A stretch of 64,000 nt of DNA from contig OZ038378.1 of the NCBI GenBank assembly GCA_964036045.1, positions 57,325,408 to 57,389,407 of the forward strand, read 5' to 3'. Positions 3,455 through 57,400 of this stretch are shown here, one piece after another; the stretch's first letter is position 1, and the number at the start of each line of letters is the position of its first letter. This DNA is from Eutreptiella sp. 'Long Island Sound 2002'. Taxonomy: Eukaryota; Euglenozoa; Euglenophyceae; Eutreptiales; Eutreptiaceae. The translations under genes and the position numbers were made by a program. The notes under the pieces were generated by a model. It was given only the letters and a program-made list of their open reading frames with translations. It was not told the origin of the DNA and did no database searches.

Positions 3455-3905
3455 TTCGAACAGGGGGGGGGGGGTTACTATACCCAGGGTCCCTGACTTT
3501 CCCGCATGTTGAACGTTTACCTAGGTTCCATACTTTCCCATTTTCCACTTGTTCCTAGTAGCATGGCAGTTTCTTGTCCGACCTCGCCCCCCAACAGCAC
3601 TTGGTGGGTGGGTGGGTGGGGGAGAAAAGCCTGATGGGGGGTTTCGGGTTGAGCGTTGGGGTGGCCCACCAGCAAAACTGACTGTGTTGTTATTCACATA
3701 CCTAGTTCATGCCTACGGCCATGGTCAAGGAAGCAAGGTGCAGAATTGGGCAAGAGAAAAGGGGGGGGGGCAAGTCTGATATGGGGGGCAAAGCGCATGT
3801 CTGATATTTTGGGGGGGGGGGGGGGCAAAGGCCTATCATGGGGGGCTTGGGGGGTTGGGGGTTGGGGGTGATGGTCCATAAAAGTCTGAAGTCTGAAGAC
3901 TGATA
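3455..3905. repeat. Left-end G-rich segment of copy 1
   Basis: Shared with copy 2 (32.15-32.40 kb): a TTCGAA plus G-run start, a GGTTCCATA block followed by TTTCCCATTTTCCACTTG, long G runs, then GATGGTCCATAAAAGTCTGA and TTGGGTTACTATACC. Copy 1 keeps about 250 bp in the middle that copy 2 lacks. It lies just downstream of the gene B stop, so it would be gene B 3' UTR or the element end. Confidence 0.65.
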
Positions 3906-3907
3906 GC

Positions 3908-4816
3908 CTATTGGGTTACTATACCCATAGCTGGGGGGCTGGTTGTGCACCTCTGGCCATCGGTATCAAACCGGACTGATTCAACGCCATGCCATGCACC
4001 TTTCACAGTTTGCTCTTTGAATTGAGTCCACCCTGGTCCCTCCTCCCTCGCCACCTTTTCCACCCGTGCCTGTAACGTTTCGGTTGCCTTGGTCAAGTGG
4101 GCACCTGTTGGTGCATGCAACTGTGCAACGTTGTTGAAGCTGCGCGTACCGTGTAGTATGTCCCCATATACCACTGCCCATGACAGCAAACTTGCATCAT
4201 GGCAATCCTCCCACACATCCTCCTCCTTGGTGGCGAGGTGCGTTTTGAAATCCAAATGCCTCGCCACCCATGGCACATTGGCCAAGAACACCTTGTTGCG
4301 ACGGGCATTTGCCTCGGACCACCGGATACGTTGACTAGCAGGGATCAAACGCAACCCGCTGCGCGTATCTGGTCTGGTGTTCTCTTGGACACACCTCTCG
4401 AGGTCCTTCCACTGGCGCGCACCGTTGTACAATGCACGTTGGCGACCCACAGCTGCCAGGTACTCACCATGCACTTGGCCACCTGCCTCCAAGGCAAGGC
4501 CTAGCTTGCGCTGGACCACATGGCATGGCTCACCCAAGGGGGTTAGCAAGGACAGCCACTTCACAAGCATGGCAAACACATTGTGCTCCATTGCCGACAC
4601 ATCAACAGCTTGCCTTGCAGTGGCACCACGCACACCAAGGTTAGAGGCACCATCCACAGCAAAAGCCACAACCTTCTGAGCCCACCCGGCACGGTCAGGC
4701 ATCCAGGACAGCAGCACTGCCTCCACCTGTGCCGTCACCTCTTGTGCCTCCCCTGAAGCCACATCCACCACACCAAGGAACACCTCACACATTCCCCCCG
4801 GCCCAGTGCTTGGAAA
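3908..4816 (-). pseudogene. hAT-like transposase, catalytic second half (gene B, copy 1)
   Basis: This is the 3' part of gene B; the upstream part lies at 13587-14976 beyond the LINE. The frame has the hAT pattern: FAVDGASNLGVRG (second catalytic Asp region) and, about 50 residues on, EPCHVVQRKLGLAL, matching the family's H-C-hydrophobic-H-x-LNLAL-like signature. A conserved segment follows (ANARRNKVFLANVPWVARHL), then EDVWEDCHDASLLSW. Copy 2 has the same protein at 33.2-34.2 kb and continues for about 850 bp into a hATC dimerisation domain; here the frame runs out after WHGVESVRF, so hATC has been deleted. Adding one copy of the 16-bp target duplication makes the frame continuous with the 13.6-kb part. 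In the family this is the DDE-type cut-and-paste enzyme; here it is dead. Confidence 0.7.
4801..4816. repeat. Target-site duplication of the LINE, left copy
   Basis: GCCCAGTGCTTGGAAA, identical to 13571-13586. The first four bases could also belong to the AAAGCCC tail of the LINE, so the true duplication is 12-16 bp. Confidence 0.9.
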
Positions 4817-5002
4817 CTGTCAGCTGGAGCTTGCACCGCTAGGCAGTGCCCTGTCGCCTCTGAGATGGCGTGTCAACCTTGGGGCATCCCACGGGGAAGG
4901 GGTGTACAAACGCAAGCACAGGCCGTGGTGGCCTGTCTTCCCCTGTTCTCCCTCCCAACGGGCAGATCGGCGACCCGGCGGGACATCCCCAGCACTAGGG
5001 CA

Positions 5003-5180
5003 CGGCGGCCGGCGATCCGACGGTGCGACGGTCCCTCCTCTTCCACCCTGCACGTCAGTCGGCGATCCGGCGGTGCTTCTGTCCGCCGCCTGCCCCCGTG
5101 CACGTCAGTCGGCGATCCGGCGGTGCTACTGTCCGCCTCCTACCCCTGTGCACGTCAGTCGGCGATCCGACGGTGCCGCA
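5003..5180 (+). repeat. 50-bp tandem repeats in LINE 5' UTR
   Basis: Units at 5051-5100 and 5101-5150 are near identical (CACGTCAGTCGGCGATCCGG start), with partial units at about 5003-5050 and 5151-5180. Tandem monomers at a LINE 5' end recall promoter monomers of some mammalian L1s; that function here is only an analogy. Confidence 0.8.
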
Positions 5181-5321
5181 CCCCACCCAGCCCCCTCCCC
5201 CCCTGTCCCGTCCCCGTACACGTAGACTGAGGCCTCCCGGCACGCGCAACACGCTTCACAACGCACAGCCCCACCCTCCGGACTGGATTCATAGCCGAGG
5301 GCACCCCTAAGTCACGTAAGA

Positions 5322-5395
5322 GACTCCCGCGGCCCAGTAGTGAGAGCGTCGGTCTTCAATCGTCCAGTGCGGGGGTTCGATCCCGGGCGTTGGTG
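5322..5395 (+). other. tRNA-like patch (A/B-box-like) in LINE 5' UTR
   Basis: A D-arm-like segment GCCCAGTAGTGAGAGC (from 5332) is followed about 30 nt later by GGTTCGATCC (5374-5383), a match to the pol III B-box/T-loop consensus. An anticodon stem GTCGG/TCGTC with loop TCTTCAA can be drawn with one mismatch. No acceptor stem pairs, so this is not a functional tRNA but a tRNA-derived or pol III promoter-like remnant. Confidence 0.35.
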
Positions 5396-5639
5396 CTCCT
5401 GGGATCCCTGCACGTAGAGCTCTCTAGTTGGCGACGTGGGAACCACCCCCCCCTCCAGCAACTCGCGCCACCACCGATACCGGTGGATCGGGTGGAGGTC
5501 TCGTTCATTTTACCCCCCACCCTAGAAAAACAAAACACACGGGAGCCACCCACCCCTGCAGCAGAGCGCACCGTCACCTGTACTCGAACAGGTCGACGGG
5601 AGGCCCCGTCCGGTATTCGAAGGGATCGGTGGGAGACCA

Positions 5640-5712
5640 CCGATCACGGGGTTCGAACCAGCTCCTTCGCAGGGCGCGCCGGGTGCGCTACCTCCAGGGC
5701 GGCTGCCTTCTG
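5640..5712 (-). other. Second tRNA-like patch, opposite strand
   Basis: On the minus strand, GGAGGTAGCGCACCCGG (A-box-like, around 5680-5698) precedes GGTTCGAACCCC (B-box-like, 5648-5659) by tRNA-like spacing. The T-stem has one mismatch and no acceptor or clean anticodon stem forms. Treated as a degraded tRNA-like segment inside the LINE leader. Confidence 0.25.
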
Positions 5713-5820
5713 AGATACACTGGCACCCGGGTCACAGAACAAACGCGCCCGCAACCCCCTCCCCCTGTGCTATGTGTAAGCTTGCAGTAGGGGTGCTCTG
5801 CTGGGCCATGAACCGGAACA

Positions 5821-7905
5821 TTGGTGCACCACTCCAGCCACGGTCACCCCAACCCCCCCTCGCATCCCGCAGGGCGAAGCTCCGTGCGCATCGGGCTCGT
5901 CATGGGAATCCGGCGGACCGACGCCTGGACACCTAGTCGACACCTCTCTCCCCCCCCACCTCTCATGCTCGCAGTCACCATGCCACCGGCTGCAGCCGTT
6001 ATCCCCGATGTCTCAGCGGATGCGTTCCGCGCCCTTTCTCCAGCCGACCGTGTGGCGGCCATCACCCCTAGGGACAGCTTCCCTTGCACGGGGGCCGCCT
6101 CGAACCCTCTTGCGCGCGAGCTGCTGCTCACACTCCACCACCATCCCTCCGGAGTTCTCTGCGCGGGGTGCCCGGCAGACGACGCCTTCCTGGGGTCCGT
6201 GTGCCTCATGTGGGCGGCTGCCACCGACTCGCTGGCACACCTTGACATGGAGTCGCTGCGCAACCACGCGGGCCAGACATCGTGGCTGACATACGGCATG
6301 GCCATCGACGCCCTGGTGGCCTTCCACGCCCAGGCCACGCCGGCCCAGATGACCGACCTCCACTCCGAGGCCTCACTCTTCACCGCCCGCTACGGCGACC
6401 AGACCCTCCGCACGCTCAGCCACGACGAGTTCCTGATGGTCCTGTCCGGAGAACACGACCTGAAACCCCCGGTGATGCGCCTCCCCGTGATATACTGGTT
6501 GCTCAGCTGGGCGGCCAAGCAGGCTGGATCCGCGCTGGCGTGCCCCGACCTCCTGCCCACAGACCCTCCGACGCCCTTGCCCACCAATAGCGTCCTCACA
6601 ACCGCCCAGTGGGTCAAGGAGCTAAGAGCTCATGGCCCCGATGGGGATGGCAAGCTGTGCCACCCGGGACTCCTCATGCGGCTGTACGCCTCCAAGGAGC
6701 GCTGGCGCAAAGAAACGGCCGACGACACGTCGGATGACCCGTGGCTCCTACAGCTACGGGCACTATCCTCCGCGGACTCCGCGGATTTCCTCACACGCCT
6801 GGACTCCCTCGCCTCCGTGCCCGAGAACAAGGCCGAGGAGCATGCCCAGCCACTGCTAACACTAGCGCGGGCACACCAACTGGGCTCCAAGGCATACGGC
6901 AACATCAACGGTGTACGGACCACGGCGGCGCTGGTGGGTGTGGCCAAGTCCCTGTGGCTGACCTGCCCCGCGTACCGCCAGCCAATGTTGCGGGCGGACC
7001 TGGCCCGCTACGTCGGGATCGTGGAGGAGCGTTACGAGAACAACAACCTGCAGGACCTCAAGACCAAGTCCCTGGAGGAGATAGTCCGGCTGATCGAGCA
7101 GCCTGGGTCCCAAACCCTACCGTATGGGGACGTGGCCCGCAAGCTGGCTATGCACGACGCAGTATCGGACCGAGCCTCCCAAAGCCTCCTAGTGGTCTCC
7201 ACGGAGGACACGTTCCGCCAAGCCCTGGTACAGACGTTCAGGGGCATTGAGACCAAGGCGGGGGTGACGCAGATCACGCAGACCCTCAAGAAGGAGCTCA
7301 CCAGCAAGGCCTCGGACGCGGCCTTCGACTGGGTGCTTCGCCGCGGCTCCACTCCGGCCAGCCCAGCTACTGGGCCCCCCCCAGCGGGTCCGCCACAGCC
7401 AGGGCCCCGCCTCGTCATCCCGGGCCTCCAGGATGCCCAGCTTCCCGCCACTGCCACTACCCCAGTGGACGCGTCCCGCCCCCACCCTCCAGGCCGACGC
7501 CTCATCATGCTCCGGGACCTGGAGTCCATCGGGGACGCGCACCTGATGGCGGCCAGTGTGCAGCTCACCCATCTCCTCCTCACACCCATCACCCTAACGC
7601 CCCAGATGATCCGCCGGCGTGTCGGCATCGCCACGGTGGACGAGTCCGTCTGGGCCTCCCTCTTCACCTCCAGTGCTGACCGCACGTACCTAGACACCAG
7701 CGCAGTGCCGCCCCAGTGGTCGGTCACCCTGGCCAGCACGCGGCGTGATGGCTCCCCAATCGAGAGGTCCAGCGACGTCTGTGACGCCTCGGCGCCCGCC
7801 GTCACCCCCACCCAGACCGCTCCCAGGGACGGGCCCAAGAAGGACGCCAAGCGCCCCCGCCTAGGGGATCACCAGGGGACGCACCGAGCACGCCCCCTCC
7901 CTTGA
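5821..7905 (+). CDS. LINE ORF1 protein, novel type
   Basis: A 694-codon open frame, the longest intact gene in the LINE. The first 55 codons are Pro/His-rich and lie in the leader; an internal ATG near 5965 or 5980 is a plausible alternative start. I recognise no RRM, CCHC or esterase domain. The middle (about residues 60-480) is mixed alpha-helical with scattered Cys (VLCAGCPADD near 135) and a charged block ERYENNNLQDLKTKSLEE. Then come a Pro-rich linker, a second folded segment (LIMLRDLESIGDAHLMAASVQ), and a basic tail GPKKDAKRPRLGD resembling a bipartite nuclear localisation signal. By position it should be the RNA-binding ORF1p of the retrotransposon; that is inferred from place, not from a motif. 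Confidence 0.75.
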   Translation: MVHHSSHGHPNPPSHPAGRSSVRIGLVMGIRRTDAWTPSRHLSPPPPLMLAVTMPPAAAVIPDVSADAFRALSPADRVAAITPRDSFPCTGAASNPLARELLLTLHHHPSGVLCAGCPADDAFLGSVCLMWAAATDSLAHLDMESLRNHAGQTSWLTYGMAIDALVAFHAQATPAQMTDLHSEASLFTARYGDQTLRTLSHDEFLMVLSGEHDLKPPVMRLPVIYWLLSWAAKQAGSALACPDLLPTDPPTPLPTNSVLTTAQWVKELRAHGPDGDGKLCHPGLLMRLYASKERWRKETADDTSDDPWLLQLRALSSADSADFLTRLDSLASVPENKAEEHAQPLLTLARAHQLGSKAYGNINGVRTTAALVGVAKSLWLTCPAYRQPMLRADLARYVGIVEERYENNNLQDLKTKSLEEIVRLIEQPGSQTLPYGDVARKLAMHDAVSDRASQSLLVVSTEDTFRQALVQTFRGIETKAGVTQITQTLKKELTSKASDAAFDWVLRRGSTPASPATGPPPAGPPQPGPRLVIPGLQDAQLPATATTPVDASRPHPPGRRLIMLRDLESIGDAHLMAASVQLTHLLLTPITLTPQMIRRRVGIATVDESVWASLFTSSADRTYLDTSAVPPQWSVTLASTRRDGSPIERSSDVCDASAPAVTPTQTAPRDGPKKDAKRPRLGDHQGTHRARPLP

Positions 7906-7923
7906 GACCCCTCAAGCACGGCG

Positions 7924-8352
7924 GTGATGGTCTCGCGGCCGGGCCAATGGCAACCACAGCTCCCGGCCCCTTGGCCACTGCCCGCCCCCCCGCCGGCCCC
8001 AGGGGGGGCCCGCGGCGCGGACACAGCCCCCTTCGATGGCACCGTACGCCGCTTACTGCACCTCCCCCGTATTCTCCCTCGCACAGTCACCCCCTCCGCC
8101 CCTCTCCTCCGCGTGGCTCAGTCCGTCGCTGAGACCCACACCCTCCGTCACGCAGTTGACCACATCCCCAGCCAGATACACGCTTTCCTGCCCTTCCTCC
8201 CTCTAGAACAGACAGAGCACCCGTCTCAGACAGGATTGTGGATGGCTTGCTGGACCTGTGGCGCCCTCTTTGCACTCCGCACACGCTGCCAACCCCCCCA
8301 GTGCCCACAGTGCTCCACCCATGGTGGCCTAGCCCTCCTATGCCCCCCCCCC
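7924..8352 (+). pseudogene. ORF2 amino-terminal part with Cys-rich zinc finger
   Basis: Same frame as ORF1, just past its stop. It encodes a Pro-rich start, then MACWTCGALFALRTRCQ and CPQC, a CxxC...CxxC zinc-finger-like motif near codons 109-130. The frame runs into an 11-C run (about 8342-8353), beyond which the endonuclease-bearing frame at +2 takes over. It probably is the true N-terminus of ORF2, separated by a homopolymer indel (biological or sequencing). Confidence 0.5.
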
Positions 8353-10571
8353 CTTACACCCTCCACCGAGGCCCAACTTCGGGTTCAGGCGCGCGCGCAC
8401 CTTCCTCCCGCGACTGGCGGCCGCGTCTGCTGTACCCCGCCTCCTTATGGCACATGGTTGCCTCCAGCACCATCCATTGGCTGTCTGGCACGCGCGAACA
8501 CATGCCCCGCCACCACAGTGTTGCACTCGTGACCCCCCCTTTCTTCAACCCCCAGGGTGACATGATATGGTTCTGGGACACGGCACGGCGGCTACCGCCG
8601 GCACCTGCCGGCATTCTCTGCTACACGCGCCGGGGGCATGAGTGGTTCCTAGACTGCAACCTCCACCCCCCTGTCGTGTTCGTCATGGCCCCCCACTGCC
8701 CCCTGTGCGGACGACCAGAGCGCCCGGCAGCGGTCGTCCATGGCCCCCCTGACCACTCCCACTACCCTGGATTCTTCTGCACCTCTCCCCGACCCCTCAG
8801 TGCCACCTGCCGTACGGAGCTGGCGGACCGATCCTCATCCGATGTGACTGGGATACTGGTCCCGAACACAATCCCCGTCTCCCTCACCACCGGTGACCGT
8901 AACTGCTTCTCGTCGGCAGTCGTCCCAGTTGCCCCCCCTCCCCACACGGCAGTTGCACGTTGGTTCCTTGACCCGCCCACCCCACCGCCTGTACCCACCA
9001 TCTTGTATTGCAACAACCTCGGCGGTATAGAAACCAAAACCGAGGACCTGGAGAACCACCTCCTCTCGGTGGACATAGGCTACGGCCTATATCAGGAGAC
9101 CTGGTCGGATCGCAACCTACGCCACAGCATCCCTAGGCGTTATGGCTATGTCATCAGCCACACGCAAGGGGCAGGTACGGGGTTCTTGATACTGTGGGCT
9201 TGGGCTTTGGTTAAGGGACCCTCCACCCCCCACGTAGCCATGGACTGCACTGACTGGTTTGCAGTGGTGATTGAGACCACCCGGTATGGTGCCCTCCTCC
9301 TGGTCTCCATACACCTCGGGCCCCACTACAGCTTCGCTGAAAAGAAAGGCGTTCTCCAGGCGATTAAACAGCTTATCGCCCTGTTGCGCCCCCAGGCCAC
9401 CATCATGGGTGGGGATTTCAATTGTGAAGCGTACGGGGACAACTCCCCACTGTACTACGCGCTGCGCAGCACGACACTTTTTCAAGAGTTTCACTTGGCA
9501 CACCCCCCGGGCACCTTCACCAACTGGACTGTGGTCGATGGGGTGCAGCGATGCACAGGCATTGATCACATCCTCACCTCACCAAACGTCCCCCCCCTCC
9601 ACTCCACCCTCCTTCCCTCTCACAGCACCCACATGGGCCTGGTCACCACCATCGACACCCATAATCCAAACGCACAACCGTTTCCTTGGAAGCGCTTCAA
9701 ATGGCGCTTACTGGCACCAGCCCACGCCACACAGCTCTCGGGCCTGATAGACGCGGTGTGGGCATGGATCACTCTTTACCCCGCCCCCCCGGACCACTAT
9801 GTCCGCGCTCTGTGGCACTATGCGTCATCAATCGTGCCCAGACCCCCCACGGCAGCCACAGTCATTAAACGCCTGCGCACCCTGACCCCCCCCCTGTCCC
9901 AGGCTCGCCTACAAGAGCTGTCCCGAATGCTCCGCGAAACGGTCGCGGAAAGGGGACGCGAGCGCCTAGCGGTCACCTTGGCCAAGGTGGTTGTCACCGG
10001 CGCCACCCGCAGCGCCTTGCGTCTGCCTGCTCAACCCCTCAAACCCCTGTCGCGCATAGCCCCCAACCCCCGCACCACCCTCTCCACCCCGGACGCCCTC
10101 AAGGCAGAGATCGACACCCAGGCTGCAGTGAACGTCCAGCACCGCCATCTGGTGCTGGACGATCACTGGCTCCAGGCGCACACCGACCCACAGTGTTGGG
10201 AACCGTTTTTCAACCCGGTCCTTGACCTACCGGTGCGAGTATTACTGCAGTTCCTCCGGCTGGGGCTCCGACCTCAGGTCCCGGGAGACAGGACAGCCTA
10301 CTGCAACCGTCTCTCGTCTGACCCCGTGCTCTCGGATCACCTCATGCAACCCTCCATATCCGGCCCTGGCTCCTGGGCCACAGCTGTGGACAACATGCCT
10401 CGTCGGCTCCTCCAGCCGGGGGGGTTCGGCCTCAGTGCAGGCGTGCTGGCCTCGCGCAGACAAGCCTGGCTCGGCGTCCCCTCCCTCTCCACCATGCCAG
10501 TGCAGTATGGCATCTACAAGGGCAAAACCCCCAACGATAAAAAGAAACCCCCCAATCTGATGACGTCCTAG
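8238..10571 (+). pseudogene. LINE ORF2: APE endonuclease and start of RT
   Basis: A 777-codon frame. After a Pro-rich region and a possible knuckle (HCPLCGRPE), an endonuclease/exonuclease/phosphatase fold begins near residue 255: ILYCNNLGG, then LYQETW (metal-binding Glu), VSIHLGPH, MGGDFNCEAYGD (Asp/Asn pair), GIDHILTSP and a terminal SHSTHMGL (catalytic His position). This is the target-nicking domain of APE-type LINEs. An alpha-helical linker follows, then the first RT block VQYGIYKGKTPND. The frame ends in TAG (10569-10571) directly before RPVV, where RTs carry the conserved RP motif, so the stop interrupts the RT domain. The downstream frame is the same, so a single C-to-T change (CAG to TAG) would explain it. 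Confidence 0.85.
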
Positions 10572-10580
10572 CGGCCGGTA

Positions 10581-12041
10581 GTGGCCGAGAGCCCGGTCAC
10601 AGGCGCCGAGGCGCACGCGGCCAGGTCCAAATTGGACCGCACGCTTGAAGCGTCCGCTTTGTACCCCCCCGACTATTTCGCGTACCGGGACGAACTAAGG
10701 GCAGCCGAGTTAGCGCTAGTCAGTCGCGCAGCCTGCACCTCCTCCTTGGAAGTGTACGGGTCCGTGGCACGCTGTGGGTGGGATGAGTCCGATGCATGCC
10801 TACGGAAGCAGCGTGACCATGTGCAGCGCCTATGCTCCAGGCTCAGCCCGGCATGGAACTACGGGGAATGGGCAGCGGGATTCTACTCCCAGCTCTGCAT
10901 CAGGGTGGTGTCGGCGGACGGCCTCACGCCAGGCTACACCCCCGAGGAGGGATACTCCCAGGGCAACCCCTTCTCTGCCAACGGATATCAAGGCGCATCC
11001 GTCCTCGCCTCCTCTTCCCTCCCCTTCCCGAAGCACATACACATCCCCCCCTGGCCGTCCCCCACGACCCTGCCCGTCAATAGAGTTTGCTACAGCGATG
11101 ACCGCGCCTTCTTTGAACCCACCATAGCGCAGGTGTCCGTCATCGCGGGAGAGTGTGTGCGCGCGACGCTCCACACCAACGGGGTGCCCAACATGGACAA
11201 GTTGGAGTTTAGTTTCCACACACTCGATGTAGAGGGCCTCCCGCATCCGGCGGTGGTGGAAGTGCCCAGATTCAAGACGCGCACCCTCCCAGCCCCACCC
11301 CTCATCGTAGGCGTGCCAATTTTCCACACCCTCAAACCTACGGCCAAGCTCAGCGACCTGCTGCGCGCGTTCCGGTCAGTGTATCACTCCACCCGTGACA
11401 AACCCATGTCTCCCCTGCTGATGGTACGGTCCTTTGTAGCGTTTGCCCTATCCCGCTGGGACTTTGTGTTTTCTGGCGTGCTAGCCCCTCCGAGCTGGCA
11501 CCATGACCTACAGGTATACGCCCACAAGGCGTACCGGGCGGCCTTCGCCCTCCCACCATGGACGTGCAACGCGTTCCTGCACCTCCCGCTGCACGCTGGC
11601 GGCGTCGGATGCCCCTCCCTCCCCCTACGCAACCTCAGCCTTCTGACGATGACCTACCTGCATGCTTCGGTCAGCCGCAACCCCCTGTCCCGTGTGTCCG
11701 CGGTATACCTCCTGGACACTATGGCCCCTTTTTCGGAGGGCATGGCCTTGCCCACGGCCCTGGCCACCCTGCGCACGCGCGTCCACACCCACCCGTTCCC
11801 CCACCTGCGAGACATGCACGTGCACGCACACGTTACCTCCGACCACCCTCTGCCTAACGTCCTGTGGGTCGTCACGGACGGTGCCCTGACGGGACATCGA
11901 GTTGGCGGTGGAATAGTGTTCTACAGTCCCCGGCTCGGAGTCCTCCGGTCGTACAGTTTTGGCGTGTCGGTGGTCGTTGCCACGTCCGCGGATGCGGAGT
12001 GGCTGGCTAAGCTAGTCGCCCGGTCCCTCCTCCAGGGCTGA
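10581..12041 (+). pseudogene. LINE ORF2: reverse transcriptase and start of RNase H
   Basis: Same frame as the preceding segment. Contains RT motifs: GYTPEEGYSQGNPFSANGY (motif B, QG-x-P) and VNRVCYSDDRAFF (catalytic YSDD box). The thumb region follows, then an RNase H start: VLWVVTDGALTGHRVGGGI (first Asp) and TSADAEWLAKL (Glu). The frame closes at TGA (12039-12041), inside RNase H and in frame with the next segment, again explicable by one C-to-T change (CGA to TGA). The enzyme would reverse-transcribe the element RNA at the nicked target. Confidence 0.85.
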
Positions 12042-12080
12042 GAAGGCCAAGCCAGCTTCCTTGCGGATGCCACCGCGTCC

Positions 12081-13136
12081 ATGCACTGCGGATACACCAA
12101 AGCCCCCCCCCCTGCTTCCATCCTCAACCACCTCTTCAGGCAACTGGTCTCCGCCTCGGTGGGGGCCCAAGAGTCTTGGGTACGGGCGCAACATGACACG
12201 GGTCACACTCACACGGTGGCGGTGCTCCAGCGAGAAGCTCACCTGCTGGCCGCACATGGCGCCTCCCGAGCACTACCCTTCACTGCCCCACTCCTTCCCC
12301 TATTGCGCGGAGCCGCACTGGCTACCAGCGAAGGGCGCCTCCTCCTCAATGCACCACACAGTGTAACTCGCCTGCACGACCAGACCCTCATCCGAGAAGC
12401 GGCGCCCTTAGCAGCGTGGGATACTGCTGTCTGGAACGCCACAGCGTTCTCGGCCCTCCTCCTGAACTCCGCCCTCCCCCGGGCACCCCTAGTACTCGCC
12501 TTACGCTTGAGAGCGATACTGTTTCGCCCCCCCCCCACCTCCGTGCATTACTACACATGCGACTACTGCGATGCACACGTGGACCACCCCTGGTCCCACG
12601 TGGCCCACTCCTGCCCCACGTTTCTCGTGCGCAGCCAGTGGGCATTTGTGCGCCTCCTCACCACGGTACCCAAGGTGGCTGGGTCATACCTGCCTGACGG
12701 CACGACCGTCGTGCAACCAGACAACAACACCTCCATCACGGTGGCGCTTGAAACGGACCTACACACACCGTCCCCCCTCCCACCCCACAGGTGGTCTGTC
12801 TATTCCCCCTCTGGCCTAGTCAGGTCCCCGCACCCCTCCTCAGCAGCTCGGGACGGCACGGGCGACCGTGTTCGTGTGGTCCTGGAGGCGATGGCTGACG
12901 GATCCCCCCGACTCACAGGCCTACTGATGGTCCTGGACACCCTGGAGTGGCCCACTCGGCCCAGCTCAACCCTCAACCCGCATGTGGCGGAGCTCCGCAC
13001 CCATGTCCTACCACTGTCGGTAGCGTTCCTCGCCCGATGGACCACGTGCCACCTACAACACTGGCGAATGGTAGCGGGGGGTCGGCTACCCATGCGCATG
13101 CCCCCCCCCCCACTGCGCGGTGGGCCCCCACAGTGA
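12081..13136 (+). pseudogene. LINE ORF2: RNase H end and CCHC knuckle
   Basis: Continues the ORF2 frame after the TGA. It starts within RNase H: FLADATASMHCGY just upstream (third Asp), then VRAQHDTGHTHTVAVLQREAH, the C-terminal His/Asp block. After an alpha-helical region comes YYTCDYCDAHVDHPWSHVAHSC, the CCHC zinc knuckle typical of LINE ORF2 C-termini. The tail meets an 11-C run (about 13099-13110), after which another frame continues. Confidence 0.8.
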
Positions 13137-13351
13137 CATTTCTGGTACACCCCAATCTACAGGACCCGTCCATAGCGCACCTTGTGCAGGTACACCCAGG
13201 GCCCCTGATGGTCCTAACCATTGCCACCGCCTTACAACCCTTGCTCCTCATTCTACCTGGACCCATGAACACTCTGGCCGTCCGGCAGCACGTGCTCCTG
13301 TGGGACGCAGCGGTAGTTCACACACTACCGACACAAGAACGCTTCCAGTAA
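13105..13351 (+). pseudogene. LINE ORF2 carboxy-terminus after C-run frameshift
   Basis: Frame +2 beyond the C run encodes TVTFLVHPNLQDPSIAHLV and a Leu-rich stretch to a TAA at 13349-13351. Composition and codon use match ORF2, while the original frame stops at once. I read it as the real ORF2 end displaced by a homopolymer length change. Confidence 0.5.
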
Positions 13352-13570: not shown

Positions 13571-13586
13571 GCCCAGTGCTTGGAAA
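13571..13586. repeat. Target-site duplication of the LINE, right copy
   Basis: GCCCAGTGCTTGGAAA, identical to 4801-4816. Minus-strand translation across it reads LLFPSTG, which continues as PGGMCEVFLG at the other copy; gene B copy 2 reads IFPGTGPAGMCEVFLG. Confidence 0.9.
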
Positions 13587-13878: not shown

Positions 13879-13938
<60 letters not shown>

Positions 13939-17488: not shown

Positions 17489-17493
17489 AGGAG

Positions 17494-43848: not shown

Positions 43849-43878
43849 AGCACGGGTGGGATAGGGCTTGCCCCCAGT

Positions 43879-47510: not shown

Positions 47511-47559
47511 AGTGGAGGAGGGGTGGCTTGAGAAGGAGGGTGAAGACGCGCCAATTATT

Positions 47560-50500
47560 TGGGGGGTCTAGACCCCCCTAGGAATTGACGCATCCACATG
47601 CGTCAACTTTTTTGGGGGTCTAGACCCCCCTAAGAAAGGACGCATGTGGATGCGTCAATTATTTGGGGGGTGTACCCCCCCCAAATAATTGACGCATGGT
47701 TATGCGTCAATTATTTTGGGGGGTCTACACCCCCCCAAAAAAATGACGCATGTGGATGCGTCAATTATTTGGGGGGTCTACACCCCCCTAATAATTGACG
47801 CATGTGGCTGCGTCAATTATTTTGGGAGTCTACGCCCCCCAAATAATTGATGCATGGGTATGCGTCAATTATTTCGGGGGTGTACACCCCCCTAGGAATT
47901 GACGCATGTGGATGCGTCGAGTATTTTGGGGGTCTAGACCCCCCAAATAATTGACCCATGTGGATGCCTCAACTATTCTGGCCGTGTACACCCCCCAAAA
48001 TGATTGACACATCGGTATGCGTCAATGATTTTGGGTGTCTACACCCCCCAAACAATGGACGCATGGGTATGCGTCAATTATTCGGGGGTCTAGACCCCCC
48101 AAATAATTGACGCATGTGGATGCGTCAATTATTTGGGGGGTCTACACCCCCCACCTGATCGAAACATGTGGATGCGTCAATTATTTGGGGGGTCTACACC
48201 CCCCTAGGAATTGACGCATGTGGATGCGTGAATTATTTTGGGGGTCTACACCCCCCAAATAATTGACGCATGGGTATGCGTCAATTATTCCGGGGGTCTA
48301 CACCCCCCAAATAATTGACGCATGGGTATGCGTCAATTATTTCCGGGGTGGAGACCCCCCCAGGAATTGACGCATGTGGATGCGTCAATTATTTTGGGGG
48401 TTTACAGCCCCCCAATAATTGACGCATGGGTATGCGTCAATTATCCTTGGGTTTTGACCCCCCAACTGATTGACACATGTGGATGCGTCAATTATTTCGG
48501 CGGTCTACACCCCCCAAATAATTAACGCATGTGGATGCGTCAATTATTTGGGGGGTCTACACCCCCCAAATAATTGACGAATGGGTATGCGTCAATTATT
48601 TCGGGGGTCTACACCCTCCAAATAATTGACGCATGGGTATGCGTCAATTATTTTGGGAGTCTACGCCCCCCAAATACTTGACGCATGGGTATGCGTCAAT
48701 TATTTTGGGGGTCTACACCCCTTTAGGAATTGACGCATGTGGATGCGTTCATTATTTGGGGGGTCTACACCCCCCAAATAATTGACGCATGGGTATGCGT
48801 CAATTATTCCGGGGGTCTAGACCCCCCAAATAATTGACGCATGTGGATGCGTCAATTCTTTTGGGGGGTCTAGACCCCCCAAATAATTGACCCATGTGGA
48901 TGCGTCAACTTTTCTGGGGGTCTACACCCCCAAAGGATTGACGCATCGGTATGCGTCAATTATTTTGGGGGTCCACACCCCCCAAACAATGGACGCATTT
49001 GGATGCGTCAATTATTTTTGGGGTCTACACCCTCCAAATGATTGACACATGGGGATGCGTCAATTACTTGGGGGGTCTACACCCCTCTAGGAATTGACGC
49101 ATGTGGATGCGTCAATTATTTCGGGGTTCTACACCCCCCAAATAATTGACGCATGGGTATGCGTCAATTGCTCGGGGGGTCCACGTGCGTCAATCAGTTG
49201 GGGGGTCTAGACCCCCCAAATAATTGACGCATGGGTATGTGTCAATTATTTTGGGGCTCTTGACGCCCCTAGCAATTGACGCATGTGGATGCCTCAATTA
49301 TTTTTGGGGTGTAGACCCCCCTAGGAATTGACGCCTTTCGACGCGTCAATTATTTTGGGGGTCTACACACCCCTAGGAATTGACGCATGTGGATGCGTCA
49401 ATTATTTTGGGGGTCTACACCCTTCAAATAATTGACGCATGGGTATGCGTCAATTAGACCCCCCTAATAATTGACCCATGTGGATGCGTCAGCTCTTCTC
49501 GTGGTCTACACCCCCGAAATGATTGACGCATCGGTATGCGTCAATCATTTCGGGGGTCTCGATTCCCCAAATGATTGACGCATACCCATGCGTCAAATAT
49601 TATTGGGGTCTACACCCCCCAAACAATGGACGCATGGGTATGCGTCAAATATACGGGGGTCTAGACCCCCCAAATAATTGACGCATGTGGATGCGTCAAT
49701 CATTTAGGGGGTCTACACCCCCCACCTGATTGAAACGTGTGGATGCGTCAATTATTTGGGGGGTCTACACCCCCCTAGGAATTGACGCATGTGGATGCGT
49801 CAATTTTTTGGGGGGTCTACACCCCCCAAATAATTGACGCATGGGTATGCGTCAATTATTTCGGGGGTGTAGACCCCCCCAGGAATTGACGCATGTGGAT
49901 GCGTCAATTATTTTGGGGGTTTACACCCCCCCCATAATTGACGCATGGGTATGCCTCAATTATCCTTGGGTTTTGACCCCCCAAATAATTGACGCATGTG
50001 GATGCGTCAATTATTTGGGGGGTCTACACCCCCCAAATGATTGACGAATGGGTGTGCGTCAATTATTTTGGGGGTCTAGACCCCCCTAGGAAATGACGCA
50101 TGTGGATACGTCAATTATTTCGGGGGTCTACACCCTCCAAATAATTGACGCATGGGTATGCGTCAATTATTTTGGGAGTCTACGCCCCTTTAGGAACTGA
50201 CCAATGTGGATGCGTCAATTTTTTGGGGGGTCTACACCCCCCAAATAATTGACGCATGGGTATGCGTCAATTATTCCGGGGGTCTACACCCCTTTAGGAA
50301 TTGACGCATGTGGATGCGTCAATTATTTGGGGGGTCTACACCCCCCAAATAATTGACCCATGTGGATGCGTTCATTATTTGGGGGTTCTACACCCCCCAA
50401 ATAATTGACGCATGGGTATGCGTCAATTATTCCGGGGGTCTAGACCCCCCTAGGAATTGACGCATATGGATGCGTCAATTCCTTTGAGGGGTCTAGACCC

Positions 50501-52608
50501 CCCAAATAATTGACCCATGTGGATGCGTCAACTATTCTGGGGGTCTACACCCCCAAAGGATTGACGCATGGGTATGCGTCAATTATTTTGGGGGTCTACA
50601 CCCCCCAAACAATGGACGCATGGGTATGCGTCAATTATTCTGGGGTCTAGACCCACCAAATAATTGACGCATGTGGATGCGTCAATTATTTTGGGGGGCT
50701 ACACCCTCCAAATGATTGACACATGGGGATGCGTCAATTACTTGGGGGGTCTACACCCCTCTAGGAATTGACGCATGTGGATGCGTCAATTATTTCGGGG
50801 TTCTACACCCCCCAAATAATTGACGCATGGGTATGCGTCAATTATCTTTGGGTTTTGACCCCCCAACTGATTGACGCATGTGGCTGCGTCAATTATTTTG
50901 GGGGTCTTCAACCCCCAAATAATTAACGCATGTGGATGCGTCAATTATTTTGGGGGTCTAGAACCCCCTAGGAAATGACGCATGTGGATACGTCAATTAT
51001 TTCGGGGGTCTACACCCTCCAAATAATTGACGCATGGGTATGCGTCAATTATTTTGGAGGTCTACACCCCTTTAGGAATTGACGCATGTGGATGCGTCAA
51101 TTATTTGGGGGGTCTACACCCCCCAAATAATTGACGCATGTGGATGCGTTCATTATTTGGGGGGTCTACACCCCCCAAATAATTGAGGCATGGGTATGCG
51201 TCAATTATTCCGGGGGTCTAGACCCCCCTAGGAATTGACGCATGTGGATGCGTCAATTCTTTTGGGGGGTCTAGACCCCCCAAATAATTGACCCATGTGG
51301 ATGCGTCAACTATTCTGGGGCTCTACACCCCCAAAGGATTGACGCATCGGTATGCGTCAATTATTTGGGGGGTCTACACCCCCCAAACAATGGACGCATG
51401 GGTATGCGTCAATTATTCCGGGGATCTAGACCCACCAAATAATTGACGCATGTGGATGCGTCAATTTTTTTGGGGGTCTACACCCTCCAAATGATTGACA
51501 CATGGGGATGCGTCAATTACTTGGGGGGTCTACACCCCTATAGGAATTGACGCATGTGGATGCGTCAATTATTTCGGGGTTCTACACCCCCCAAATAATT
51601 GACGCATGGGTATGCGTCAATTACTCGGGGGGTCCACATGCGTCAATCAGTTGGGGGGTCTAGACCCCCCAAATAATTAACGCATGGGTATGTGTCAATT
51701 TTTTATGGGGTCTTGACGCCCCTAGCAATTGACGCATGTGGATGCGTCAATTATTTTTGGGGTGTAGACCCCCCTAGGAATTGACGCCTTTCGACGCGTC
51801 AATTATTTTGGGGGTCTACACACCCCTAGGAATTGACGCATGTGGATGCGTCAATTATTTTGGGGGTCTACGGCCCCAAAATTATTGACACATGTGGATG
51901 CGTTCCCTATTTGGGGGGTCTACACCCCCCAAATAATTGACGCATGGGTATGCGTCAATTGTTTGGGGGGTCTAGACCCCCCAAATAATTGACCCATGTG
52001 GATGCGTCAGCTATTCTCGGGGTCTACACCCCCGAAATGATTGACGCATCGGTATGCGTCAATTATTTCGGGGGTCTTGATCCCCCAAATGATTTACGCA
52101 TACCCATGCGTCAAATATTTTTGGGGTCTACACCCCCCAAACAATGGACGCATGGGTATGCGTCAATTACTCGGGGTCTAGACCCCCCGAACAATTGACG
52201 CATGTGGATGCGTCAATTATTTTGGGGGTGTACACCCTCCAAATGATTGACGCATGTGGATGCGTGAATTATTTGGGGGGTCTACACCCCCCTAGGAACC
52301 GACGCATGTGGATCCGTCAATTATTTAGGGGGTCTACACCCCCCAAACAATTGCCGCGTGTGAATGCGTCAATTGTTTAGGGGGTCTACACACCCCAAAT
52401 AATTGACGCATGGGTATGCGTCAATTGTTTCGGGGGTCTAGACCCCCCCAGGATTTGACGCATGTGGATGCGTCAATTATTTTTGGGGTGTAGACCCCCC
52501 TAGGAATTGACGCATGTGGATGAGTCAATTACTTTGCGGGTCTAGACCCCCCCCAGCAATTGACCCATGTGGATGCGTCAATTATTCACGGGGTCTACAC
52601 CCCGCAAC
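47560..52608. repeat. Satellite of 52-bp double-hairpin units, 5 kb
   Basis: About 97 units. Each has two inverted repeats: TTGACGCAT-(GTGG or GGGT)-ATGCGTCAA and a G5-6 arm, GTCTACA or GTCTAGA centre, C5-6 arm, joined by ATTATTT and AAATAA. Both loop variants of the first hairpin alternate. Larger repeats are visible: the variant CTCGGGGGGTCCACRTGCGT recurs at 49171 and 51624 (2,453 bp apart), others at about 1,570 and 780 bp. It lies behind the helicase 3' end. Open frames across it are repeat artefacts. Confidence 0.97.
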
Positions 52609-52621: not shown

Positions 52622-53997
52622 ATGGGGCGAGGGTAGCAACCGTTTTCAAATAAGTCACCGGAGTGGCCTGCCACCTGCAACCAACAAACCTCACGCAATA
52701 GTCGAGCCACACCATTTGGGCATAATGTGTCGCCACTACCGCTACCGACTGTGCCGGGCAAGTGCCTCTCCTAAGAGCCAGCTCAAAAAAAATGGCACAC
52801 TAGTAGACCCTCCTCCATGCTCAGGTTCCCCTGTTTAAGCAACAACGGATCCATTTGCATGTTGCTCCATGTGTCCTGTACATCACTGTACATTCTACCC
52901 AGGGCCTCTGGCCCCAAAGTTTCCTCCAACTCCTCCCACCACGTGGTCCCATCGACGTCCACGATGCGGATGGGGTTGTTCAAGATTGGGTCAGGGAGGG
53001 GGTGCACAGATGAGTGGTAGTAACCAAGGCCCCCCCCTATCAACAAGGTGCGCGTGATTGTAGCCAGCGGCTTGGTCATCCGGTACTGTTGTACCAGGAT
53101 ACTGGCCCGGCAACGCGTGCGGTAGAAAAAGAACTGCAAGGTGCTGGTGGTGCAAGACCGATGCGAATCATGCCAATGCACTTGCGGGCCGGGAGATTGC
53201 CTTACAACATTGTTGTATTTGAAGGTTGGATCCGATGGCCATGCCAGTGCTTTGGCGTCTACCTCACCCTCACAAGCACTTGCCAAAAGCCGGACGTGGC
53301 TGTAGGTAGCTGTAGGTAGCTCCAACTGCCCAGGGTCACCACACAACAGACATTGGCTGCCCATGGCTGCCAAGTCCAGGCCCACGGGGATGCTGTGCCT
53401 GGACGCCTCATCCACAAAGCTAAACGCAAACCTGGTTTGTTGCTTCCTTGCTGCAGCCCCAAGCAGCGGCTTGTGCCGGTTAGCAACCATCCGAGCCGTG
53501 GCAAACAACACACGGTAGGAGTTGAGGGCACATGTGAGGGTAGCCTTACATCCCAGGGTGTTCCCCAAGGTCTCCTGCACCTTCAGCTGGTCAAAGGATG
53601 CCAGCCGTGGTGGGGCAGTAGCCCGTTGCGCGCGGAGTTGCAACCAGGATGCTGGATGGTCGCCGAGCACCCTGTCACGAAACGGAGTGTCGCTATAACA
53701 CTCCTCGTGCACGCGTGACCACAATATGTCGACTTGTGCATTGGTTGGTGCAGCCACCAACACACATGCGCGGGGTGGGGTATCTCCCTCAGGCCCCCCC
53801 ATCTTCTTGCCCATATTGACCGTGCTAAGGTTAGCAGGATCGGGGTTCTGGGCGACAAGGTGGCCTTGCTGCCATAGCACGGCTTTGATGCATGCCACGA
53901 GGGTCTCTGACTTCCCTGTGCCAGCCCCTCCATTCAATGTTGTGATGCATGACTCGTCCAGCACCTGTCGCACAGCCAACGCCTGTGAGGGGTTCAA
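52622..53997 (-). pseudogene. SF1 helicase motor, motifs I-IV (gene A, copy 2)
   Basis: Encodes NPSQALAVRQVLDES, LNGGAGTGKSETLVACIKAV (Walker A), CVLVAAPTNAQVDILWSRV (Ia), YRVLFATARMVANRHK, FSFVDEASRHSIPVGLDLAA (Walker B, DEAS), MGSQCLLCGDPGQLELP (III), ILVQQYRMTKPLATIT (Q-YRM), and past a frameshift near 52790, SVAVVATHYAQMVWLDYCV to YLKTVATLA, where the satellite begins. All motor residues seen are intact. UPF1/DNA2-like SF1. Motifs V and VI lie at 46.2 kb on the other strand. Confidence 0.85.
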
Positions 53998-54006
53998 TGT
54001 GTGGCG

Positions 54007-54723
54007 TTACACAAGGTGTGTCAGGATCTCCTGGTCCTCGTTCGACAAAAGAGGCGCGTCCCTTGGTTCGGCCCGGATGTTTGCCAGCAGTTTGGGCCAT
54101 GCTAACCCTTGCTGGATCTCCCTACGCAAGGTGCGAAAGGCAGCCGTGTCAGGGACAACCTTACACCAGTAGGTGCCAGTGAGATTGGCGCGTGGCTTAT
54201 TAGCACAGCTGATCCAAACACGGTCTCCCGAGATGCCATCACCATGCACCCTCGCCTGAAAGTCCGGTTTCGAGGGGTCCCAGTTGCGGTTGGCAGCGAT
54301 CCAGCCATGCACCATGTCATGATCACTGAGCTCATAGTTACGCCATACCTCCATTTGGAAGGCCCATTGTGGCTGTTGAGGAACATTCCAATCCCCATCG
54401 CCGTCATCTTCGGGCCACCATTCCTCAAAAACCAGCTTCCGTTCCGTGCCGTTCTTGTTTGCCCACACCTCAGCAGCCTCCATCTCATGGAGAGTGTACA
54501 CCTCTGATGCTTTGGTCACAAACCTGCCGCGGTCAAGCCACCATTGTGTAAACCCTTCCATGAGCTTGTCATGGGGCCCATAGGCCATGTTGTTCAATGT
54601 GGCAGTAGTGGACAACGGTGTTGGCTGCTGTGGGAGTTGGGAGGATGGCTGTGGCGGAGCGGCACATAGTGGTTGTGATGAGGGTTGAGCTCCTTGTGGC
54701 CTACCCGAGTTGACCGGCGCCAT
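54007..54723 (-). pseudogene. Helicase accessory N-domain (gene A, copy 2)
   Basis: A 238-codon frame reading EGFTQWWLDRGRFVTKASEV, VWRNYELSDHDMVHGWIAAN, ARVHGDGISGDRVWISCANK and LSNEDQEILTHLV, matching copy 1. It ends in TAA (54007-54009) and the motor frame follows in the same frame (RHTLNPSQALAVRQ). Copy 1 has EHHNLNPSQ there, so one nonsense change at a Glu codon is the only break. Confidence 0.75.
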
Positions 54724-55455
54724 GGCCGGGGCAGGGGTGGACTGCTGTGGCTCAGCAGCACACAGTGGTTGTGTTGAGGGTTGACTGAGGCAGCAGTCGG
54801 CACTGCCTTGAAGGTGATGGACTGCTGTGGCTCAACGGCACACGGTGGTAGTGACGAGGGTTGAGCACCCTGTGGCGCGCCCGAGTCGACGGCCGGGACA
54901 TGGACGGACTGGTGCGGCTCAGCGGCACACATTGGTTGTGCAGAGGGTTGAGCACCCTGTGGCGCGCCCGAGTCAACCGGCGCCATGGCCGGGACAGGGG
55001 CGGACTGCTGCGGCTATGGGGCACACATTCACGGGGCAGAGGGTTGAGCACCTTGTGGCGCGCCCGAGTCGACCGGCGCCATGGCCGGGACAAAGGCGGA
55101 CTGCTGCGGCTCTGGGGCACGCATTCGCTGAGCAGTGGGTTGAGCACCCTGTGGCGCGCCCCAGTCGACCGGCGCCATGGCCGAGACAGGGGCGGACTGC
55201 TGCGGCTCTGGGGCACGCATTCGCTGTGCAGAGGGTTGAGCACCCTGTGGCGCGACCGAGTCCACCGGCGCCGTGGCCGGGACACGGGCGGACTGCTGCG
55301 GCTCAGGGGCGCGCAGTGGTGGTGGTTGTGCAGAAGGTTGCGGTGAGACCATAACGAAATCCACACCCCCGGGTGGTGGCTGGGGCGTTGCCTGTGGCTT
55401 TGGCTTTGGCTTTGGACCACCATAATTGCTCTTGGGGAACCATTTTGGAGCCATG
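54594..55455 (-). repeat. 88-96-bp coding repeats at gene A start, copy 2
   Basis: About seven units with core GCGGACTGCTGCGGCTC and GGGTTGAGCACCCTGTGGCG. In the minus frame of 55029-55499 they read RAPEPQQSAPVSAMAPVD-GAPQGAQPSAQ. The likely start is the ATG of MAPKWFPKSNYGGPKPKPKP (about 55453), followed by a Pro/Gln linker. Related to the EPQE-type repeats in copy 1 and in gene B. Confidence 0.75.
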
Positions 55456-55820
55456 GTTTGGAAGTTTGTGATAAGTGGAAGCCAGCGGTTGAGGAGCAAG
55501 GGAAGAGAGCGGTTGGAGAGCGGCTTAGTGGACTATAACGCTAAGGTTGAGGCCACACAACAAAAACTACATCTCGGAGGTTGTAGTGGGCAAACAAAGG
55601 CTGTCAAGTATAGAGGAGCGTGGAAGATTGGGCAGGGGTGTTGGACCATGGGAGCACTAAATGAATGCGCCATGCGACTGTCAAAAGGGGGGGGGGGGCA
55701 GGCTCTGGGATGTGGGCGAAGAATGGGGTGGTGGGGGAGGGCGTTTTCCAACGTGTTTCCCATTGCGTGAAGACGGACGTGGACGGCAACATAAAAGCAA
55801 AACACGGAAGGCACCACACA
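55456..55820. other. Upstream of gene A copy 2, no gene seen
   Basis: No clear counterpart of the shared 5' module or of gene C was found. There is a G run at 55687-55697. Frames here lack motifs. Presumably the leader or promoter region of gene A in this copy. Confidence 0.4.
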
Positions 55821-57400
55821 ACAAAGTTACATTGTGAAGCAAATGTGACACATAGCAGAGCCCCTTCTCAGATGTATTGTTTTTGGATATGAAGGTCGGA
55901 TATACTCTGTGGGGGAGCCCTTTGGAACACGCGGTCGGTGCACGCGGAATTTTGGGGCTGCCACTCTAAGGCACTCAAAGGCCGCAGTGGAGAGTGGACT
56001 TGTCTGCTTGCTGATGACGTGGCACGCCGGTGGACCAGTGGACCAGGCCTTCTCAGCGCGCACAAACGCTGGGCGTCTGCGTGCTGTGCTGTGCATCCAT
56101 GTGTTGAAAAATCCACAAGGGGCGGTTCCTGGTGCACAAAAGCGTGCATTTCTCAACCGCTCTGCCGACACGAAATAGGGCCTAAGAAAAAGGTCCCTGC
56201 ATGGGTTTGTGGCACAGCCCAAACCCAACATCGGCAGACCAGCCCCACAGGGTACTGAAATGAATGAGATCATCACTGAAGGGGTTGCAAACAAGACAAA
56301 ATGCAAACAATGGCAAATGGGAGGGTACGTACGCGGTACACATCACCTGCAGTCACAGCGTCACACCTGAGACTACAGGCGGGTCCTGCTACCTCAAGGG
56401 ACAGCATCATGACCATTGCAATTGGCATCAGTTAAATTCGGATCCACAAATAAATTGGTGATGGTAAGCCAAAGAACATCAAACAACGTAGACACACATA
56501 CATTCTTTGAACACACCATGTGACGCATTGCACTGGAAGAGTGAAAGCAGGCTTTTCCACACGATTCCGCACGGGGAGGGGTGGGGGGTGTTTTCCCTAC
56601 ACTATGGATTTCTCTGGATGATTTTCCATACTTCCTCGAGAAACAACACAAGGCAAAGCACGGCAAGACAGCGCAGGAAGAGGACAACAGGTTTTTTATG
56701 GTCGTCACCAGATAATGGGAATAAACAACAAAGCGTGAGCAGAGCGAAGTGCAGCACATTGCAATGAGCCTTGAGGGCTAGGTAAGATGGTCGGGTTAAA
56801 AGAAAGAAATCAAATTCAAATTCCCTGCAAATCCCCTTCTCAGATGTATGTTGCTTGCACATGACATTGACAAAAAAGGGTTTTCAAAATGCTTGCTGGC
56901 CGTTGGAGGACATGGTGCGCATTCGGTCGGACATGGTAGACTGACTGCTGGTGGCAGCAGTGCAGCGGATGTCTCTTTCCTCGGCCGCAAAGTTTTTTGG
57001 GTTTTCAAAAGCTCGGTCCGCACAAAACAGGTCCTACGAAAAAGGTCCTTGCAGGGGTCCACACCGAAGACCCACGCGTGACGGAGCATTGTGTCGTGCT
57101 GGACAATCGACAGCCCCACAATCGATATCCCATGAAACTTGGTGTGGGCTACGGAGAGGCCTAGGCAGCTCATCTCAACTGTCATGCATCGTCATTGAAG
57201 GCGCTCGCAGTCAGCAAATTGTAATTGGTTGCAGAAGCAAACATGTTAGGACCCCTTCTCGGCTGTTGTCAGCTTGTTCATCAGTGAAGGGCTCTGTGGT
57301 CATAGGCGCAAAGGCCTAGACCGCAAACCGTGAAAACAGCTCAGGGGTGTTCTGCATAAGCAAAGTGTCGGCACAAACAACCAAAGCACTTCAAGGGTGG
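55820..57400. repeat. Right terminal zone of copy 2: repeated modules
   Basis: Blocks shared with 29.04-30.80 kb: ACACATAGCAGAGCCCCTTC and TCAG (55846-55871), CCCCTTCTCAG (56833; variant CCCCTTCTCGG at 57252), GGGCCTAAGAAAAAGGTCCC (56178; variant 57030), and CATAGGCGCAAAGGCCTAGA (57301). No coding supported. Confidence 0.65.

Follow-up and report, generated by a model that had tools for sequence, protein, structure and literature searches.

The stretch of DNA analysed here, referred to as the window, comprises 64,000 nucleotides from the euglenophyte Eutreptiella sp. 'Long Island Sound 2002' (contig C1, GenBank OZ038378.1, positions 57325408–57389407 of a 2.28-Gb genome). It contains two head-to-tail segments at 32–57 kb and 3–32 kb, each with a UPF1-like superfamily 1 (SF1) helicase gene, a long satellite and a region referred to as gene B, in which an N-domain, an OTU-like region, a USP (UCH) domain and a transposase-like region follow one another. 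A first-pass annotation, made from the sequence alone, had described the segments as two tandem copies of a composite mobile element. As alignment reference for the window and the 30 kb below it (negative coordinates denote positions below the window start) we used an 18.6-kb copy from another chromosome, the C16 element. According to this alignment the copies are nested instead: the copy at 3–32 kb splits the transposase gene of the copy at 32–57 kb, and a target-site duplication (TSD) is found at each level.

Three nested elements and their satellites

The nesting order is E3 within E2 within E1, with the right ends located 22–25.5 kb below the window. The outermost element, E1 (minus strand), has its left end at 57746 and runs to 32401, collinear with positions 1–17465 of the C16 element except for one inversion. 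At 32401 it is cut by E2, which broke the E1 transposase gene, and it resumes at −24451 to −25536 with its last 1.1 kb (positions 17456–18636 of the C16 element, with a gap). Its TSD reads TACCACGC on one side and TACCGCGC on the other, with 7/8 bases identical. E2 (3934–32400, minus strand, right end at −24452) is flanked by TGCCACAT, 8/8 identical. At 3933 it is cut in turn by E3, which broke the E2 transposase gene; E2 resumes at about −22449 to −24452, and the rest of its transposase gene (positions 16597–17941 of the C16 element) lies at −22451 to −23808. At the E2 insertion site the C16 copy shows uninterrupted sequence with TGCCACAT present once, whereas it is too divergent to show the same at the E3 site. 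E3 (minus strand) occupies positions 1–3933 of the window and continues to about −22447. It has an exact TSD (CAGCCCCC, 8/8) and a perfect terminal inverted repeat (TIR) of 14 bp.

The proposal that the genes of both segments lie on the minus strand in one and the same order agrees with the C16 element for both, except that in the 32–57 kb copy the stretch 46213–52607, which contains the satellite together with the 3' portion of the helicase gene, is inverted relative to C16. Long satellites between helicase and gene B, also described before, were found in both segments. The E1 satellite (47548–52607; Tandem Repeats Finder rows 47548–51638 and 51638–52607) has a palindromic 52-bp unit, two joined units of which pair strongly with themselves as RNA. 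The E2 satellite (19751–22618, same program) has a 41-bp unit and is about 83% identical to the array in E3.

E3 is 26,381 bp long, including 20.8 kb of 41-bp satellite, the best stretches of which are 82.5–83.6% identical to the internal array of E2. It also holds 0.6 kb of 52-bp satellite, about 78% identical to that of E1, and gave no tblastn match to six open reading frames (ORFs) of C16. Since the E3 arrays resemble those of E1 and E2, both kinds of satellite occur inside gene-bearing elements as well as in one gene-less element. E3 lacks the genes of the family and consists mostly of E2-type satellite; the element ends therefore apparently carry satellite arrays. The intact ends and the exact duplication of E3, the one such element read, indicate that satellite-filled elements likely move in trans. 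Within E3, the window also contains a 726-bp array of the pentamer TCACA (2697–3422).

Element boundaries and dispersed copies

Short inverted ends (CAGCTATG...) enclose the helicase gene, the satellite and the transposase-like gene. All six elements with both ends read (C16, C17, C3, E1, E2 and E3) are flanked by 8-bp TSDs, which are exact in every case but E1. The TIRs are perfect over 12, 14, 14 and 14 bp in C16, C17, C3 and E3, respectively; by eye, the TIR of E1 is perfect over 10 bp and that of E2 is imperfect. These ends and duplications are the product of a cut-and-paste-type insertion.

Two copies outside the window are complete. The C16 copy comprises 18,636 bp with CAGCTATGTGT at both ends and the TSD ATGCCCCG (8/8); its borders are readable because it lies inside an array of a 103-bp satellite. 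Within 36 kb around the helicase match the order at C16 is ORF1, helicase, 52-bp palindromic satellite, N-domain, OTU-like region, USP and transposase-like frame. The C17 copy comprises 20,692 bp and is flanked on both sides by GTGAGCGC (TSD 8/8). A deletion copy of 14,136 bp at C3, flanked on both sides by ATGACCGC (TSD 8/8), lacks about positions 7900–12341 of the C16 element, a stretch that spans the satellite and the N-domain and reaches into the OTU-like region. At C11 the left end, the helicase and the satellite are present. Beside the 103-bp satellite at C16 we observed approximately 14 kb of a 49-bp satellite (L034 1–9998, L033 1–4329), which reaches the edge of the examined stretch.

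Around the helicase gene six loci were read, namely E1, E2 and four chosen from the best helicase matches (C16, together with C17, C3 and C11, ranks 2, 5 and 6 of the match list). Gene B sequence lies downstream of the helicase on the same strand at five of them, all but C11. The first-pass annotation had assigned helicase, satellite and gene B to one mobile unit, and had proposed to check this by their recurrence in that order at unconnected loci, with outer boundaries in common and a target duplication. This recurrence was found, and the single mobile unit is borne out by it.

A wider view was obtained from genome searches with two helicase queries and the transposase part. They gave 1,164, 1,684 and 1,874 first-look candidates, of which 102, 58 and 46 were scored, with 102, 59 and 46 matches listed. 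The 46 transposase places were compared by their listed coordinates with 107 helicase places (102 from the first query and 5 non-overlapping ones from the second, one of which is another piece of a gene that the list already has). A listed helicase lies upstream on the same strand within 20 kb of 11/46 transposase matches, within 35 kb of 14/46 and within 50 kb of 15/46, as compared with an expectation of 0.04 within 35 kb under uniform scatter. Any other arrangement of the two was found at 0, 1 and 1 of the 46 places for the same distances. The 14 co-occurrences may represent 13 independent places, because contig C1865 probably duplicates the 40.0-Mb region of C7 (equal helicase and transposase scores). 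Identity to the C16 query was at least 95% in 27/59 helicase rows and 46/46 transposase rows, with the query's own place counted.

Two small contigs are probably duplicates (haplotype contigs): C1865, with the same helicase score as C7:40.02 Mb, and C545, with that of C10:12.90 Mb. In the protein searches (best ~8,000 candidates scored per search) all matches were to ENA-predicted proteins or to the window itself. Some of the ENA helicase and gene B proteins report contigs of equal size (168,340; 529,119; 439,009; 4,093,535), which would fit a shared contig.

Encoded proteins

The helicase was classified as a predicted SF1 enzyme of the UPF1-like type from its AAA_11 and AAA_12 matches and its Walker motifs. 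In C16, where the open frame comprises 1,352 codons, AAA_11 was matched with E=2.7e-16 and AAA_12 with E=1.5e-11. The motifs GGAGTGKS, SFVDEAS, GDPGQLRP and VQQYRM are present. A sequence search of the PDB returned RNA helicases (E=2e-9), and the matches in NCBIfam were below the cut-offs. In E1 the 5' and middle part of the gene is located at 52665–55464 on the minus strand (AAA_11 E=1.3e-13 in ORF 54006–52783; 78% DNA identity to C16 over 2.7 kb). The 3' part, inverted together with the satellite, was found by blastn at 46213–47381 on the plus strand and corresponds to positions 6330–7440 of the C16 element. The E2 helicase gene (23111–26782, minus strand) is broken by tandem repeats near 24.9–25.5 kb; its main pieces are 47–52% identical to the C16 helicase ORF by tblastn, and it matches AAA_11 (E=7.1e-12, ORF 27289–25250) and AAA_12 (E=3.7e-10, ORF 24891–23698). 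Helicase ORFs of this type on the minus strand of both segments, as first annotated, are thus supported by the AAA_11 and AAA_12 matches. The proline-rich ORF1 of E2 (MSSSPLS..., 27866–28901, minus strand), with 87% DNA identity to positions 2775–3476 of the C16 element over 27866–28579, gave no Pfam match at E≤5.

Gene B begins with the N-domain and the OTU-like region. A part of both is found in E1 at 41623–43878 (minus strand) as the ORF of the 741-residue predicted protein P0001, for which there was no Pfam match at E≤1. The corresponding part of E2 lies at 15812–18846 (minus strand; tblastn 43–49% to C16 ORFs). Searches of the PDB with the sequences A2 (E=0.51) and A1 (E≥1.4) returned chance-level matches only, and NCBIfam gave no match for the predicted proteins P0002 and P0018.

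The USP-like region of the first reading was confirmed in both segments as the C-terminal part of a USP domain (PF00443): at 40410–41051 in E1 (minus strand, E=1.3e-7) and at 14714–15394 in E2 (minus strand, E=2.1e-6). The matches cover the His-box part of the profile (196/197–254) with E-values of 1.3e-7, 2.1e-6, 1.4e-6 and 3.4e-6, above the curated cut-off; P0032 matched below the cut-off (E=0.0048). By these profile matches gene B is predicted to carry a USP (UCH) deubiquitinase domain, represented by its His-box part. A candidate for the catalytic Cys box, NWCWLGTTLQCL, lies upstream in C16, outside the profile alignment; its likeness to the motif is one judged by eye. The C17 frame gave a weak match to USP5 in the PDB (E=0.11).

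In C17 a single open frame of 1,578 codons spans both the USP domain and the transposase-like region, with a PF00443 match (E=1.4e-6; 1,422 codons tested) and a 991-residue transposase match at 98%. Stop-free frames of 1,555–1,582 codons occur at 5/46 scored transposase matches (C9, C17, C11, C15 and C4), and frames of 1,578–1,580 codons with one internal stop at 3 further of the 46. The predicted ENA protein P0034 likewise joins the UCH domain to the N-terminal part of the transposase. Of the one long gene proposed for this region, the joining of USP and transposase-like parts was retained, whereas the N-domain and OTU-like part of C17 form a separate frame of 1,073 codons. As the two long ORFs lie in different frames with an overlap of 251 nt, a single long gene is unproven.

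Of the transposase-like region, E1 preserves the middle and the C-terminal part (32401–34707, minus strand), which reach to the E2 insertion and have 91% DNA identity to positions 15154–17465 of the C16 element; over 32402–33187 the protein identity is 85%. In C16 the frame with the transposase-like part has 1,219 codons. Against residues 11–486 of this ORF, tblastn aligned the N-terminal part of the E2 region in three pieces (13572–15013, minus strand); the middle part, cut off by E3, is located at 3934–4816 (minus strand, 72%, residues 482–779). The candidate residues D338 and D410 of the predicted protein P0018 are kept in 11/11 ungapped rows and E784 in 9/10. By comparison with known motifs we read these three as a putative DDE triad, the spacing of which resembles the D-D-E of the hAT transposase Hermes. 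A candidate counterpart of the hAT dimerisation region (PF05699), judged by eye, is the C-terminal stretch AAVERAIS. A PDB sequence search with P0018 gave chance-level matches only (E≥0.26). The best-modelled block of its otherwise poor AlphaFold2 model, residues 993–1058 (predicted local distance difference test (pLDDT) score 53–85), shows helices near the C-terminus which, by eye, look similar to a SAP-like DNA-binding motif.

Classification, proposed mechanism and neighbouring repeats

From these results we conclude, with a probability of roughly three in four, that the segments belong to one high-copy family of giant (about 18.6–20.7 kb uninterrupted) hAT-like cut-and-paste transposons, nested into each other and with a satellite-filled third member inside the second. 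According to PMC3942097, hAT elements have TIRs of 10–25 bp, 8-bp TSDs and a length of 2.5–5 kb. The TIRs observed here (12–14 bp, perfect in four elements) and the TSDs agree with these values; the lengths of 18,636 and 20,692 bp exceed the usual range, which is a usual and not a defining feature. Our overall reading is a hAT-like element of very large size with an unusual set of accessory genes. Its membership in hAT is likely, and the USP-linked protein is likely its transposase.

Several observations weigh against this assignment or parts of it. No hAT family was matched in Pfam (E≤1 for the window piece; E≤5 for P0018, P0020 and P0028; E≤10 for C17), where the HMMER filters discard most matches above 0.1, and the AlphaFold2 model of the transposase (P0018) is unusable with a pLDDT of 33. 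The hAT fold of the earlier label could not be confirmed in this way; the ends and the 8-bp duplication fit hAT. A C/DxxH motif between the second D and the E is common to hAT, P, MuDR, Kolobok and Dada, as stated in PMC9587614. At this place the present sequence reads ExxH: in the nearest stretch, GE-CH, whose homology was judged by eye, E stands at the C/D position in 11/11 ungapped rows and H is kept in 10/11. The OTU fold proposed for the OTU-like region could not be confirmed, given the lack of a Pfam match (window ORFs, P0002, P0012 and P0017 at E≤1; C16 at E≤5; C17 at E≤10) and an unusable model (pLDDT 38). In this region AGACF is kept in 8/8 ungapped rows and the candidate His in 6/7, the latter being Tyr in P0009 and C16. 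The Asp of the OTU motif D-G-x-C is Ala here. The helicase frame of C17, with 1,110 codons, is shorter than that of C16, and in C11 the 24 kb past the satellite lack any gene B match of at least 400 bp. Finally, the roles of helicase and deubiquitinase given in the following are proposals and conjectural.

Based on the element structure we propose the following mechanism. On one strand the element would encode the proline-rich ORF1, the UPF1-like helicase, the N-domain/OTU-like protein and the USP-transposase protein. The transposase-like part, a putative DDE enzyme of the hAT type, would bind the inverted ends, excise the element and insert it elsewhere. Our conjecture for the USP part (and the OTU-like one) is that it most likely deubiquitinates the transposase complex or else donor or target chromatin, which would prolong the lifetime of the transposase or improve access. 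The helicase, again by conjecture, most likely assists in unwinding or repairing this long element, rich in hairpins, while the excision gap is mended or during replication. Gene-less elements with fitting ends, such as E3, would have been moved in trans, bringing satellite arrays to new places.

The same mobile unit might employ a transposase of another DDE group, since other such groups (Zisupton/KDZ-like, P or MuDR-like) also generate 8-bp duplications. The missing hAT match and the ExxH stretch speak for this, as does the pairing of transposase and ubiquitin-like-protein protease in Zisupton elements. The candidate triad with its Hermes-like spacing points the other way; neither Ulp1 nor a KDZ transposase was matched by Pfam in P0018, P0020, P0028, P0032, P0034 or the C17 ORFs, where remote similarity could escape, and no other transposase family was matched. 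The short TIRs and 8-bp TSD moreover fit hAT as described in PMC3942097. We consider another DDE group unlikely. Helicase and gene B could also be two separate elements that often adjoin, as C11 with its helicase and satellite might suggest, together with the 32/46 transposase matches that have no helicase within 35 kb among the 107 places listed. These places are only a listed fraction of 1,164 and 1,684 candidates, however, and in C16, C17, C3, E1 and E2 both genes lie within a single pair of ends flanked by a single duplication, which makes two elements very improbable.

An integrated virus or virus-derived element is improbable to the same degree. Large viruses also combine helicases with ubiquitin peptidases, whereas IMG/VR, scanned one protein at a time (helicase, P0018) for close relatives, gave no confirmed one, and neither capsid nor polymerase was seen among the displayed ORFs of C16 (part) and C17, with no profile search aimed at virion genes. 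The head-to-tail arrangement of the two segments, at a distance of 29 kb, would also be accounted for if a host region bearing the helicase and deubiquitinase genes had undergone tandem segmental duplication and transposons had landed in it later. Such a duplication can hardly be reconciled with the ends and the 8-bp duplication that each segment has of its own, with the missing 3' part of the outer copy resuming past the inner one, or with the same unit on other chromosomes; the duplications at each level contradict it. A reading as host genes was rejected in view of the dispersed copies with ends.

The hAT-like assignment leaves the family distinct from the systems we compared it with. Zisupton/KDZ elements combine a transposase with a Ulp1 peptidase and 8-bp TSDs, whereas the peptidase here is of the USP type; they are not known to carry a helicase. 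Helitrons move by a rolling-circle mechanism and insert without target duplication, in contrast to the TIRs and 8-bp TSDs observed here. Helitron and Helentron elements do share the helicase and, in some cases, an OTU-like domain (PMC5148889, PMC4067079). The known hAT elements (Ac/Ds, Tam3, hobo, Hermes, Tol2) share the short TIRs, the 8-bp TSD and dispersed copies with and without genes, but measure 2.5–5 kb (PMC3942097); the present element, at 18.6–20.7 kb, adds a helicase, a USP domain within the frame of the transposase, an OTU-like protein and a satellite of its own. In hAT7 of rust fungi a hAT element likewise carries genes of an accessory enzyme that acts on chromatin or epigenetic marks, in this case TET/JBP dioxygenases, with a 7-bp TSD; the accessible text of PMC12730594 does not mention OTU, ubiquitin or Ulp1, and names a helicase once, regarding Helitrons. 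KolobokH (PMC9587614, in part) also joins a cut-and-paste transposase to a helicase, but that is RecQ with TTAA duplications instead of a UPF1-like SF1 enzyme with 8-bp ones. Teratorn is a very large composite DNA transposon as well, with a size of about 180 kb, formed from a piggyBac-like element and a herpesvirus genome (PMC10175614). In full-text searches judged by titles and abstract starts, for some by the first 5 of 6, 10 of 78 and 8 of 60 matches and with most subscription journals outside the coverage, no hAT element with helicase and deubiquitinase was found. The closest cases in the literature covered, as far as their accessible texts go, were hAT7 with TET/JBP and KolobokH with RecQ.

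An ordinary hAT element consists of one transposase in 2.5–5 kb; the present one is about four times that size and has young dispersed copies. A deubiquitinase in the transposase frame together with a helicase, if confirmed, would suggest in a testable way that transposition depends on the host ubiquitin system. Through a gene-less, satellite-filled member such as E3, satellites could be seeded directly across the genome, and the transposon would then be a vehicle of satellite spread. That this is an undescribed lineage of giant transposons with a USP-fused transposase, an OTU-type peptidase and a UPF1-like helicase, whose gene-less derivatives spread expanding satellites through the 2.3-Gb genome, we put forward tentatively, at slightly less than even odds.

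Two foreign insertions interrupt the transposase genes of E1 and E2, respectively. In E1 a piggyBac-type element (34702–39925, minus strand) was identified by a DDE_Tnp_1_7 match (E=2.3e-18), a break in collinearity and an 18-bp perfect TIR (ACATATTCCTTTGTCTAC); no TTAA was found near its junctions. It has an acidic tail and a weak PHD-finger match (E=0.14). The insertion in E2, a LINE-like retroelement (4811–13570, plus strand), is marked by an Exo_endo_phos match (E=9.5e-9) in ORF 8160–10571, a 10-bp flank repeat (GCCCAGTGCT) and a break in collinearity. Its ORF 10572–12041, when tested, matched no family and no reverse transcriptase. Rfam returned nothing at the gathering score. Outside the elements, at 62104–64000, the window contains two pairs of direct repeats approximately 1.28–1.30 kb apart, which are 89% and 92% identical.

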